A stretch of 35,531 bases of DNA, taken from positions 1-35,531 of the forward strand of contig CALMNP010000027.1 in NCBI GenBank assembly GCA_937868875.1, given 5' to 3'. The notes beneath the pieces are model-generated. The model saw only the letters and a program-made list of their open reading frames with translations. It was not told the DNA's origin and searched no databases. The position numbers were made by a program, and so were the translations under genes. The first letter of the stretch is position 1; each line of letters opens with the position of its first letter. Source of the stretch: an uncultured Bacillota bacterium (lineage in GTDB: Bacteria > Bacillota > Sulfobacillia > JAMDAP01). Below are positions 13,687 to 17,711 of this stretch, piece by piece.

Positions 13687-14556
13687 CTAGGCGGCACCGG
13701 TCAGCCCGGTCGCCAGCACGACAAACAGGAAGTACAGGATGCTGATATACCCGTTGACGTTGAAGAAGGCAGCGTTCAGCCGCGACAGATCGCCGGGGCT
13801 GACCAGCAGGTGCTCGTACCCGAGCAGGGCGGCGACCACCATCAGGCCCACCCAGTAGACCCAGCCGAGGCCCAGCATCAGGCCCACGGCCGCCAACAGG
13901 CCGACCACCACGAGGTGCACCCAGCGGGCCAGGGTCAGCGCGGCGGCGATGCCGAAGCGAGCCGGCACCGAGTGCACGCCCTCCTTGACGTCGAACTCGT
14001 AGTCCTGGCAGGCATAGATGAGGTCGAAGCCCGCCACCCAGAGGCCGGCGGCGATGCCCAGAATCACCGGCGGCCACGAAAGGGTACCGGTGACGGCCAG
14101 CCAGCCGCCGAAGGGAACGAAGAAGTAAGACAGGCCCAGCCAGAAGTGGCAGGCCCAGGTCCAGCGCTTCATATAGGAGTAAAGCACCAGCACCGGCACC
14201 ACCACGGGCAGGAACACGACGCAGAGCGGGTTGAGCATGACCGCCGCCAGCACCAGCAGGCCGGTGGCCAGAGCGCCGTAGAGGCCCACGACGAACGGGC
14301 TGATGACGCCGCGGGGCAGGTGCCGGTTGGCGGTGCGCGGGTTGCGCGCGTCGACGAAGCGGTCGATCAGGCGGTTGAAGGCCATGGCCGAGGTGCGTCC
14401 GCCGAACATGGCCAGCGTGATCCAGCCCAGGGTAGACCAGCGGGGCAGGCCCCCCGCCGCCAGGAAGGCCCCGGCGTAGGCGAAGGGCAGGGCGAAGATG
14501 GTGTGTTCCCACTTCACCAGATCGGCGAAGGTCTTGGCGTTACGAAACACGGGCAT
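13687..14556 (-). CDS. UbiA-family polyprenyltransferase (candidate MqnP of the futalosine pathway)
   Basis: VKWEHTIFALPFAYAGAFLAAGG; AMAFNRLIDRFVDARNPRTANRHLPRG; YACQDYEFDVKEGVHSVPARFG. Start overlaps the ubiD stop. Confidence 0.92.
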   Translation of the reverse strand: MPVFRNAKTFADLVKWEHTIFALPFAYAGAFLAAGGLPRWSTLGWITLAMFGGRTSAMAFNRLIDRFVDARNPRTANRHLPRGVISPFVVGLYGALATGLLVLAAVMLNPLCVVFLPVVVPVLVLYSYMKRWTWACHFWLGLSYFFVPFGGWLAVTGTLSWPPVILGIAAGLWVAGFDLIYACQDYEFDVKEGVHSVPARFGIAAALTLARWVHLVVVGLLAAVGLMLGLGWVYWVGLMVVAALLGYEHLLVSPGDLSRLNAAFFNVNGYISILYFLFVVLATGLTGAA

Positions 14557-16001
14557 TACAGCCCAAACTCCTTCCAGCGGCGGCTGACCTGCTCCTTCAT
14601 GTCGGCCGACATGGTGATGTCGTCCGGCCACTCACGCTGGAAGCCCTCGCTCTTCCACTTGCGGGTGGCGTCGACGCCCAGCTTGCCGCCCAGGTGCGGC
14701 AGCGGGGCGGTGTGGTCCAGGGCGTCCACGGGACCCTCCGTAATCTCAGTGTCCCGCTTCCAGTCGGTATTGTTGAAGACTGTCCAGGCTGTGGTGGACA
14801 GGTCGTGGACGTCCACATCATGATCCACCACGACGATGAGCTTGGTCAGCATCATCAGGCCCATGCCCCAGAGCGCGTGAATGACCTTGCGGGCATGGCC
14901 CGGGTACCGCTTCTTGATGGAAACCAGGACGCAGTTGTGGAAGACGCCCTCGGCCGGCATGTTGTAGTCCGTCACTTCCGGCACCAGCATCTGAAGCAGC
15001 GGCAGGAAGATGCGCTCCGTGGCCTTGCCCAGGAAGTAGTCCTCCTGCAGGGGCTTGCCTACGATGGTGGTGGGGTAGACCGGGTTCTTCCGGTGCGTCA
15101 CGCAGGTGACGTGAAAGACCGGGTACTGATCGGCCAGCGAATAGAAGCCGGTGTGGTCGCCGAAGGGGCCCTCGGTCCGCAGTTCGCCCAGTTCAACATA
15201 GCCCTCCAGGACGAACTCGGCGTTGGCCGGAACCTCCAGATCGACCGTCTTACACTTGACCAGCTCCACCGGCGCCTGGCGCAGGAAGCCGGCGAACATC
15301 AGCTCGTCGATGCCGGCCGGAAGGGGCGCGGTCGCCGAGTAGATGACGGCAGGGTCGGAGCCCAGCACCACCGCCACCGGCAGCCGGCGCTGTTCCGGGG
15401 TCAGGTGCTCATAGTGCTCGGCCCCGTGCTTGTGGAGGTGCCAGTGCATGCCGGTCGTCTTCTTATCGAAGACCTGAAGGCGGTACATGCCAATGTTGCG
15501 GTGTCCCGTCGCCGGGTCCTTGGTGAAGACCAGAGGCAGGGTGATGAAGGGACCGCCGTCCTGCGGCCAGCAGGTGAGGACGGGGAGCTTCGTCAGGTCC
15601 GGGTCCTCCTCCACCACTTCCTGGCAGGCGCCGCGGGCCACGTTCTTGGGCACGAAGTTGCCCAGCTCCGCCAGCTTGGGCAGGGCCTTGAGCTTGTCCC
15701 AGAAGCCGGTGACCTCCGGCGGCGTCATCAGGTCGCGGATGCGTCCGGCGATGTCGTCCAGGCTGTCCACTTCCAGTGCCAGCTGCATGCGCTTCAAGGT
15801 GCCGAAGGCGTTGATGAGAACAGGGTAGGGCGACCCCTCCACATTCTCAAACAGCAAGGCCGGGCCGCCGGTCTTGGTCACCCGGTCCGTGATCTCGGTT
15901 ATCTCCAGATTGGCGCTCACAGGCGCCTGGATTCGCCTGAGCTCCCCAGACTTGTCCAGGGTCTCGATGAAGTGCTGCAAATCACGATAGGCCAAGGCCA
16001 A
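14556..16001 (-). CDS. UbiD-family decarboxylase (candidate menaquinone biosynthesis decarboxylase, MqnL-type)
   Basis: YRDLQHFIETLDKSGELRRI; EGPFGDHTGFYS; NCVLVSIKKRYPGHARKVIHALWG; VVVDHDVDVHDL. Confidence 0.94.
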   Translation of the reverse strand: MALAYRDLQHFIETLDKSGELRRIQAPVSANLEITEITDRVTKTGGPALLFENVEGSPYPVLINAFGTLKRMQLALEVDSLDDIAGRIRDLMTPPEVTGFWDKLKALPKLAELGNFVPKNVARGACQEVVEEDPDLTKLPVLTCWPQDGGPFITLPLVFTKDPATGHRNIGMYRLQVFDKKTTGMHWHLHKHGAEHYEHLTPEQRRLPVAVVLGSDPAVIYSATAPLPAGIDELMFAGFLRQAPVELVKCKTVDLEVPANAEFVLEGYVELGELRTEGPFGDHTGFYSLADQYPVFHVTCVTHRKNPVYPTTIVGKPLQEDYFLGKATERIFLPLLQMLVPEVTDYNMPAEGVFHNCVLVSIKKRYPGHARKVIHALWGMGLMMLTKLIVVVDHDVDVHDLSTTAWTVFNNTDWKRDTEITEGPVDALDHTAPLPHLGGKLGVDATRKWKSEGFQREWPDDITMSADMKEQVSRRWKEFGL

Positions 16002-16068: not shown

Positions 16069-16107
16069 GAAAAGACGAACGACCTCAGCCTTGTGAGCGC
16101 CCAGGAA

Positions 16108-16134
16108 AAGGGGCACCCGCTGCGGGTGCCCCTT
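16108..16134. terminator. Intrinsic terminator downstream of the peroxiredoxin gene
   Basis: aaggggcacccg-ctg-cgggtgcccctt perfect 12-bp stem; minus strand continues TTTTCC. Confidence 0.75.
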
Positions 16135-16171: not shown

Positions 16172-16765
16172 CTAGATCTCGCCGGCTCGCTTGATGTCCC
16201 GCTTCAGGCCCGGCTCGCCCGGCTGCCAGTTGGCCGGGGCACCGAGCCCCGTCTCCCGATTAAACTGAACCGCCTGAATCAGGCGAAGCAGCTCAGCCGT
16301 GCTCCGCCCCACCTCCAGCGGGTAGACGAGGTAGAGGGCAATGCGGCCGTCCGGATCGATGAGGACCGTGACGCGCCGGGCCACCCCGGCCTCAGGGTCC
16401 AGGGCGCCATAGAGCCAGGGGATGTAGCCGCTGCGGTCGGAGAGCAGCGGGAACGGCACGCGCCGCGCGCTGGGCGAGACCTCGGTGAAGACCTTGTGGG
16501 CGTAGATGCTGTCGGTGCTGAGGGCCAGGACCTCCACGTCGAGCCGCTTCAGCTCCTCGTAAACGGCGGCGACCGCCGCCAGTTCCGTGGGTCAGACGAA
16601 GGTGAAGTCGCTGGAATAGAAGAACAGCAGGATCCAGTGTCCGAGCAGGTCGCGGAGGCGCACCTGCCCGGCGGTCTGGGTGTCGGGGAAGTAGGTTTCC
16701 GCCACAAAGTCGTAGGCCGGCAAACCCACCGGAGCCTCGCGGGCCAGAGGCATCACCACGGCCAT
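16172..16765 (-). CDS. Peroxiredoxin (AhpC/TSA family), candidate selenoprotein with in-frame UGA at complement(16592..16594)
   Basis: Reading through one TGA joins MAVVMPLAREAPVGLPAYDFVAETYFPDTQTAGQVRLRDLLGHWILLFFYSSDFTFV-[TGA]-PTELAAVAAVYEELKRLDVEVLALSTDSIYAHKVF...ARRVTVLIDPDGRIALYLVYP...GAPANWQPGE in the same frame. TGA replaces the peroxidatic Cys of the DFTFVCPTEL motif. Confidence 0.88.
16562..16584 (-). promoter_or_regulatory. Candidate bacterial SECIS hairpin
   Basis: Minus strand after the TGA: CCCACGG AAC-u-GGCGGC-GGUC-GCCGCC-GUU. Perfect 6-bp GC stem extended by 3 bp with a one-base bulge; apical loop GGUC, 17 nt after the UGA. Confidence 0.75.
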
Positions 16766-16906
16766 CACTCCCGGGTCATTTTGTATCCATATTATGAAAC
16801 GCCCTGGTGGGGCGCGACGGCCTGCGCAAAACCCTCCAGCAGGCAGGATTTTCCCACTCCATTCCCGTTGCAAGACCCGCCTATTCCCTATTTCGAAACC
16901 TCTAAG

Positions 16907-17009: not shown

Positions 17010-17711
17010 ATGACCACCCAACTGTATCAGACGCGTCGCCGGCTGATTACGGCCATCAAGAAGAAGGGCACGATGGCCGTGGGCGACCTGGCCGACGAGC
17101 TGGGCGTCACCGGCATGGCCGTCCGCAAGCACCTGGCCGGGCTGGAGCGCGACGGGCTTGTAACCGCAACCCTGGAGCACCGGGAGACCGGGCGACCGCG
17201 CTACGTCTATTCGCTGACCCAGCTGGCCCACGACCTGTTCCCCCAGAGCTACCACCACATCGCCTTGAACGTCCTCGACGACATCGCCGAGCTGTATGGC
17301 CCGGCGGAAGTCAACCGCGTGCTGGGCCGGCGCTCCGACCGGATGGAGGAGCGGTATCGGAAGGCCGTCGAGGGCAAGGATATCCCCGACAAGGTTGCAG
17401 ACCTGAGCCGGATGCGTGACGAAGACGGCTTCCTGGCCGACTGGGAGCGGGAGGGCGACGCGTTCGTCCTCCGCGAACACCACTGCCCCCTCTTCCAGGT
17501 GGCGTCCGAGCATCCGGTCGCCTGCTCCCTGGAACTGCAGATGTTCCGCAACCTGATGCCCGAGGCCGAGGTTTCCCGCTCCCACTGCCAGGTGGATGGT
17601 CAGCACGTCTGTACGTACCACATCCGGCCCCGGCAGGTCGCCGCCGGCGGGCAGACTGAGACGGCGGGCAGCAAGCGGGCGCGCCCCGAGACTCCGGAAA
17701 CCGGGAGGTGA
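17010..17711 (+). CDS. Winged-helix transcriptional regulator, SufR-like, with four C-terminal cysteines
   Basis: KKGTMAVGDLADELGVTGMAVRKHLAGLERDGLVTATLEHRETGRPRYVYSLT is a DeoR/SufR-type wHTH; C-terminal C-x12-C-x20-C-x7-C. Start MTTQLYQTRRRL, the ORF track start is over-extended. Confidence 0.8.
   Translation: MTTQLYQTRRRLITAIKKKGTMAVGDLADELGVTGMAVRKHLAGLERDGLVTATLEHRETGRPRYVYSLTQLAHDLFPQSYHHIALNVLDDIAELYGPAEVNRVLGRRSDRMEERYRKAVEGKDIPDKVADLSRMRDEDGFLADWEREGDAFVLREHHCPLFQVASEHPVACSLELQMFRNLMPEAEVSRSHCQVDGQHVCTYHIRPRQVAAGGQTETAGSKRARPETPETGR

Follow-up and report, generated by a model that had tools for sequence, protein, structure and literature searches.

A predicted bacterial SECIS hairpin in the selenoperoxiredoxin gene of an uncultured Bacillota bacterium

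The selenoperoxiredoxin locus and its hairpin

The window, that is, the whole stretch of 35,531 nucleotides that was analysed, carries on its minus strand a gene of the Prx1/AhpC type whose reading frame is interrupted by a single UGA. The features of the gene and its hairpin are as follows, all on the minus strand.

16768..16772 (-): likely ribosome binding site GGGAG, 2 nt 5' of the ATG, read from the sequence
16172..16765 (-): selenoperoxiredoxin gene, 197 aa with the UGA read as Sec58
16592..16594 (-): in-frame UGA, read as Sec58, at the peroxidatic Cys position (aligned with the Cys of DFTFVCPTE)
16581..16591 (-): linker from UGA to stem, 11 nt, its last base a U abutting the stem; equal length in 107 distinct Sec homologues
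16575..16580 (-): 5' arm of the predicted SECIS stem, GGCGGC (covariation counts, held-out covariance model)
16571..16574 (-): predicted SECIS apical loop, GGUC (N-GU-N, outer bases covary)
16565..16570 (-): 3' arm of the predicted SECIS stem, GCCGCC (covariation counts, held-out covariance model)
16106..16132 (-): likely intrinsic terminator 3' of the stop codon, a 9-bp GC stem followed by TTTT (stem-loop of -24.2 kcal/mol)

The translated protein matches the Pfam AhpC-TSA domain (PF00578, E = 5.8e-30) and contains no Cys in its 197 residues, Sec58 included in the count. Its top NCBIfam model is PrxU (E = 3e-50, under the cut-off of that model). Full-length Sec homologues share 51–59% identity with it, and the frame is kept on both sides of the UGA. 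Reading the UGA as Sec corrects a gene model that routine annotation would break in two or label as a pseudogene. The likely terminator is absent from a pattern scan because the scan demands five T. Immediately downstream lies a UbiD-family menaquinone biosynthesis decarboxylase gene (TIGR03701, 671 bits; 14556-16001, minus strand), and a divergent gene on the plus strand (17010-17711) encodes a SufR-like regulator (TIGR02702, E = 1.6e-38, under its cut-off).

The initial annotation had placed a bacterial SECIS-like hairpin directly 3' of the UGA, and its stem GGCGGC/GCCGCC, its GGUC loop and the UGA are confirmed in sequence and coordinates (16594-16562, minus strand), as is the distance of 17 nt, which runs from the UGA to the start of the loop, the stem itself beginning after 11 nt. 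The minimum free energy (MFE) structure of the hairpin (-18.7 kcal/mol) also contains the proposed AAC/GUU extension across a bulged U, with the GUU at 16564-16562 on the minus strand. Its first pair (positions 9–27) is paired in 26/107 homologues versus 26.4 expected, and we rejected the lower stem as a conserved part of the element on the basis of this chance-level pairing. The U 5' of the stem is universal in the homologues, yet it doubles as the middle base of a Leu/Val/Ile codon.

Published rules for bacterial SECIS (bSECIS) elements give an apical loop of 3–9 nt on an upper stem of 4–16 bp, a G at one or both of the first two loop positions, a UGA-to-loop distance of 16–37 nt and an MFE of -7.5 kcal/mol or lower, with the loop pattern N1-G[G/U]-N-N2 (PMC13188914). 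The hairpin conforms to all four rules, with a 4-nt loop on a 6-bp stem, the loop sequence GGUC, a distance of 17 nt and -18.7 kcal/mol. Rfam gave no match at gathering or permissive thresholds. Like the bSECIS of E. coli fdhF, the hairpin lies within the coding sequence just past the Sec-UGA and has a small GC-rich stem with a U at its base and GU in the loop. GGUC is the loop known from fdhF as well, whereas fdhF has fewer uninterrupted pairs between the U and the loop than the six found here; a further difference is the AAC/GUU extension of the present hairpin, which is unconserved in its homologues.

Single-sequence folding and covariation among homologues

Judged by folding of the single sequence, the hairpin is only mildly unusual, which is too weak to decide the question. 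Among 200 dinucleotide shuffles, 20 were at least as stable (z = -1.5). Synonymous recoding with the same amino acids and the codon usage of the window gave a stem of at least 6 bp in register in 21% of trials and an equally low MFE in 1.2%, and some bSECIS-like hairpin was found downstream of 23% of codons sampled from the window reading frames. The earlier argument that position, loop and UGA context agree thus carried less force for one sequence than it seemed to, and homologues were needed to settle the matter.

Homologues were gathered by class and phylum searches and by a scan of GTDB species genomes for D-F-T-F-V-UGA-x-T-E; one row in the wrong frame (L052) was left out of the protein alignment. 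Among the matches listed, more than 150 sequences carry UGA at the matching codon, and these Sec sequences come from Bacillota, Chloroflexota, Thermodesulfobacteriota, Myxococcota, Planctomycetota, Nitrospirota and other phyla. The hairpin core occupies an identical register in 107 distinct Sec homologues. Three of its pairs link third codon positions with third codon positions, and these are Watson-Crick in 106/107, 104/107 and 86/107 sequences, where chance predicts 51.7, 41.8 and 33.2; the observed pairing was not reached in any of 20,000 permutations. No other pair of third positions exceeded a mutual information (MI) of 0.25 in the 107 sequences. Mapped on a tree for which the residues encoded by the SECIS had been masked, the pair type at the three positions switched at least 24, 31 and 24 times, so the covariation does not derive from shared ancestry. 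AT-rich versions of the stem are found among the covarying homologues. The outer loop bases form G:C, A:U or C:G around an invariant GU in 106/107 homologues, in agreement with the published bSECIS loop pattern. An independent count over 50 diverse sequences returned a covariation score of 0.584 versus 0.166 after shuffling, and slid structures did not exceed 0.174. The stem covariation that the initial annotation had named as a check is thus present in the Sec forms as compensatory changes at synonymous sites.

The same check called for a comparison of Sec and Cys forms, and here a stem of at least 5 bp in the hairpin register was found in 0/32 Cys homologues, in which these positions pair no more often than by chance. 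Two Cys forms that branch among mainly Sec sequences in the tree, L028 and L206, are likewise without the stem. From these comparisons, selection acts on the hairpin structure where the catalytic residue is Sec and not where it is Cys. The family documents a natural SECIS element very clearly, with third codon positions that covary over more than 100 species and Cys homologues that lack the hairpin. A held-out covariance model, trained on 50 homologues with the peroxiredoxin gene excluded, found the hairpin in the window at E = 7e-13, and in the 3.09-Mb genome the hairpin was its sole significant match (6e-11; next 0.24). As the model includes conserved coding bases, these values test the element in its entirety rather than just its stem.

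UGA homologues lacking a foldable stem had been named in advance as evidence against a SECIS, and such sequences occur at the margin of the family, where the identical core is missing from 23 Sec sequences. Several of them keep the stem apart from a single altered pair, others seem to have the hairpin shifted and a few are ambiguous. Four PrxU sequences with UPTE[IL]S[HS]IAVGYD (L122, L151, L176, L177) have CAUAGCCGUGGGCUAUG after the UGA, apparently a different hairpin set further downstream. Eight Sec peroxiredoxins with UATEF[AS]ALA after the UGA (L072, L074, L104, L114, L142, L144, L145, L152) apparently use another SECIS form, GCUGCUCU-GGC-AGAGCAGC, displaced relative to the usual register.

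Selenocysteine machinery and the decoding of the UGA

The genome, whose assembly is split into 475 contigs, contains a tRNA-Sec with anticodon UCA, SelA and SelD, with selA just upstream of the SelD gene. SelB is represented by its last winged helix alone, a C-terminal fragment at a contig edge (C152; PF09107, E = 2.4e-21); other SelB profile matches in the genome were short and partial and were taken as other translation GTPases. The Sec machinery expected alongside a bSECIS is found in the genome in this form, with SelB as a fragment only. The SelD gene has an in-frame UGA of its own (SKSGUGCKM; L069:2417-3466, minus strand, G000:C196), which is also followed by a hairpin, with GGUU in the loop. 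A second candidate selenoprotein is a PrxQ/Bcp-type peroxiredoxin with UGA at the catalytic Cys (YPKDDTPGUTAEAC; L068, G000:C431:1400-2500, minus strand).

Three other readings of the locus were weighed. The hairpin could be a by-product of GC-rich Leu-Ala-Ala-Val-Ala-Ala codons with no role in decoding, the UGA perhaps being read as Sec through another signal, and the single-sequence statistics lean this way, given the stem in 21% of recoding trials, the many window codons with bSECIS-like hairpins downstream and the z of -1.5. Such a by-product is very improbable, however, when third positions, on which the protein sequence places no constraint, show pairwise covariation in over 100 species, AT-rich stems included, and the Cys homologues lack the hairpin. 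That the UGA is a nonsense mutation or sequencing error in a pseudogene would fit a frame interrupted by one UGA in an assembly of 475 contigs; with UGA at that same codon in more than 150 sequences of many phyla among the matches listed, a frame intact and conserved past the UGA, and a conserved hairpin, we regard this as having a negligible chance of being correct. The open frame through the UGA would equally suit its translation as Trp or Cys by general reassignment or suppression without a SECIS. But UGA is an ordinary stop for other reading frames in the window, including the SufR-like regulator gene, and it falls here exactly at the catalytic Cys column in a genome with tRNA-Sec, SelA and SelD, which leaves this reading just as extremely improbable as a pseudogene.

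The hairpin is almost certainly a bacterial SECIS element of a selenoperoxiredoxin gene, with Sec58 predicted in place of the peroxidatic Cys, as comparative sequence analysis indicates; covariation, absence from Cys forms and the Sec machinery in the genome support the initial assignment. In line with established bacterial Sec biology, the mRNA hairpin would bind the C-terminal winged-helix domain of a SelB carrying Sec-tRNA-Sec, and its placement would allow the UGA that precedes the loop by 17 nt to be decoded as selenocysteine. The Sec would then attack peroxides in place of the peroxidatic Cys and be converted to a selenenic acid. Because the protein has no Cys, an outside thiol would have to reduce the oxidised Sec directly, as in 1-Cys peroxiredoxins.

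A proline-less sister clade of PrxU

Selenocysteine signals and enzymes of this kind are known from many bacteria, and the SECIS itself is of the standard bacterial type; the one mildly new point is the little-described clade to which the peroxiredoxin belongs, which mostly lacks the active-site Pro and has lost the resolving Cys. In a quick tree, the protein falls in a sister clade of PrxU (23 rows, support 98), although it sits on a long end branch and its exact place within the clade is therefore uncertain. Its score against the PrxU model NF040737 is 171.1 bits versus a curated cut-off of 270, and four other clade members score 172–189 bits versus 359–369 bits for three neighbours outside the clade, which are true PrxU. 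The PxxxTxxC/U motif is altered to SSDFTFVU, with Thr55 and Sec58 kept and Ser for Pro; as the AhpC-TSA domain match is strong, this loss marks a variant and not a non-member. A 2026 review describes PxxxTxxU as highly conserved and crucial (PMC13188914). By counting substitutions at this position, we found Ala, Gly or Ser for Pro in 19/24 clade members (one extra partial sequence counted), while Pro is kept in 32/32 Cys forms and 1/131 of the other Sec forms departs from it, most likely L104, in which the end of the contig truncates the motif. All 23 readable clade members carry Val, Ala, Ile or Thr in place of the resolving Cys.

Since the loss of Pro is confined to Sec forms among the sampled sequences, Sec may have relaxed the need for Pro. 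Tentatively, the clade could represent a distinct selenoperoxiredoxin subfamily, so far of Bacillota, in which Ser, Ala or Gly mostly stands in for Pro, the resolving Cys is lost and a Sec that relaxes the need for Pro gives a different preference for peroxide or reductant; we hold this as somewhat less than an even possibility. The clade offers a ready test of whether Sec relaxes active-site constraints in peroxiredoxins.

Compared with known systems, the protein resembles PrxU (NF040737) in its Prx1/AhpC fold family, the Sec at the peroxidatic position and a SECIS of the same register and the same kind of stem and loop; it differs in its score (171 versus 270 bits), its Ser for Pro, its lack of the resolving Cys or any other and its position in the sister clade. 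With AhpC and the typical 2-Cys peroxiredoxins it shares sequence family, TxxC/U motif and catalytic Arg, whereas, unlike their Cys forms, it has Sec for Cys, no resolving Cys and the hairpin. The 1-Cys peroxiredoxins of the Prx6 type are similar in having one catalytic chalcogen residue, no resolving Cys and an expected outside reductant, but the present protein is nearer PrxU/AhpC in sequence and its catalytic residue is Sec. PrxU is a selenocysteine-containing peroxiredoxin first reported from Eubacterium acidaminophilum, according to the citation of Sohling 2001 in PMC9312934. In Sulfobacillus thermotolerans, a Sec peroxiredoxin named PrxU was reported to be upregulated during growth on an arsenic-rich ore concentrate together with signs of oxidative stress (PMC7409299).

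A tblastn search for the SufR-like regulator in flanking sequence from 21 clade loci, in several cases short, gave no match beside the clade peroxiredoxins. At one locus (L024 and L052, G002:C12), two Sec-peroxiredoxin genes of the proline-less clade lie in tandem, each with its own hairpin, and one of the pair has Ala directly after the Sec.
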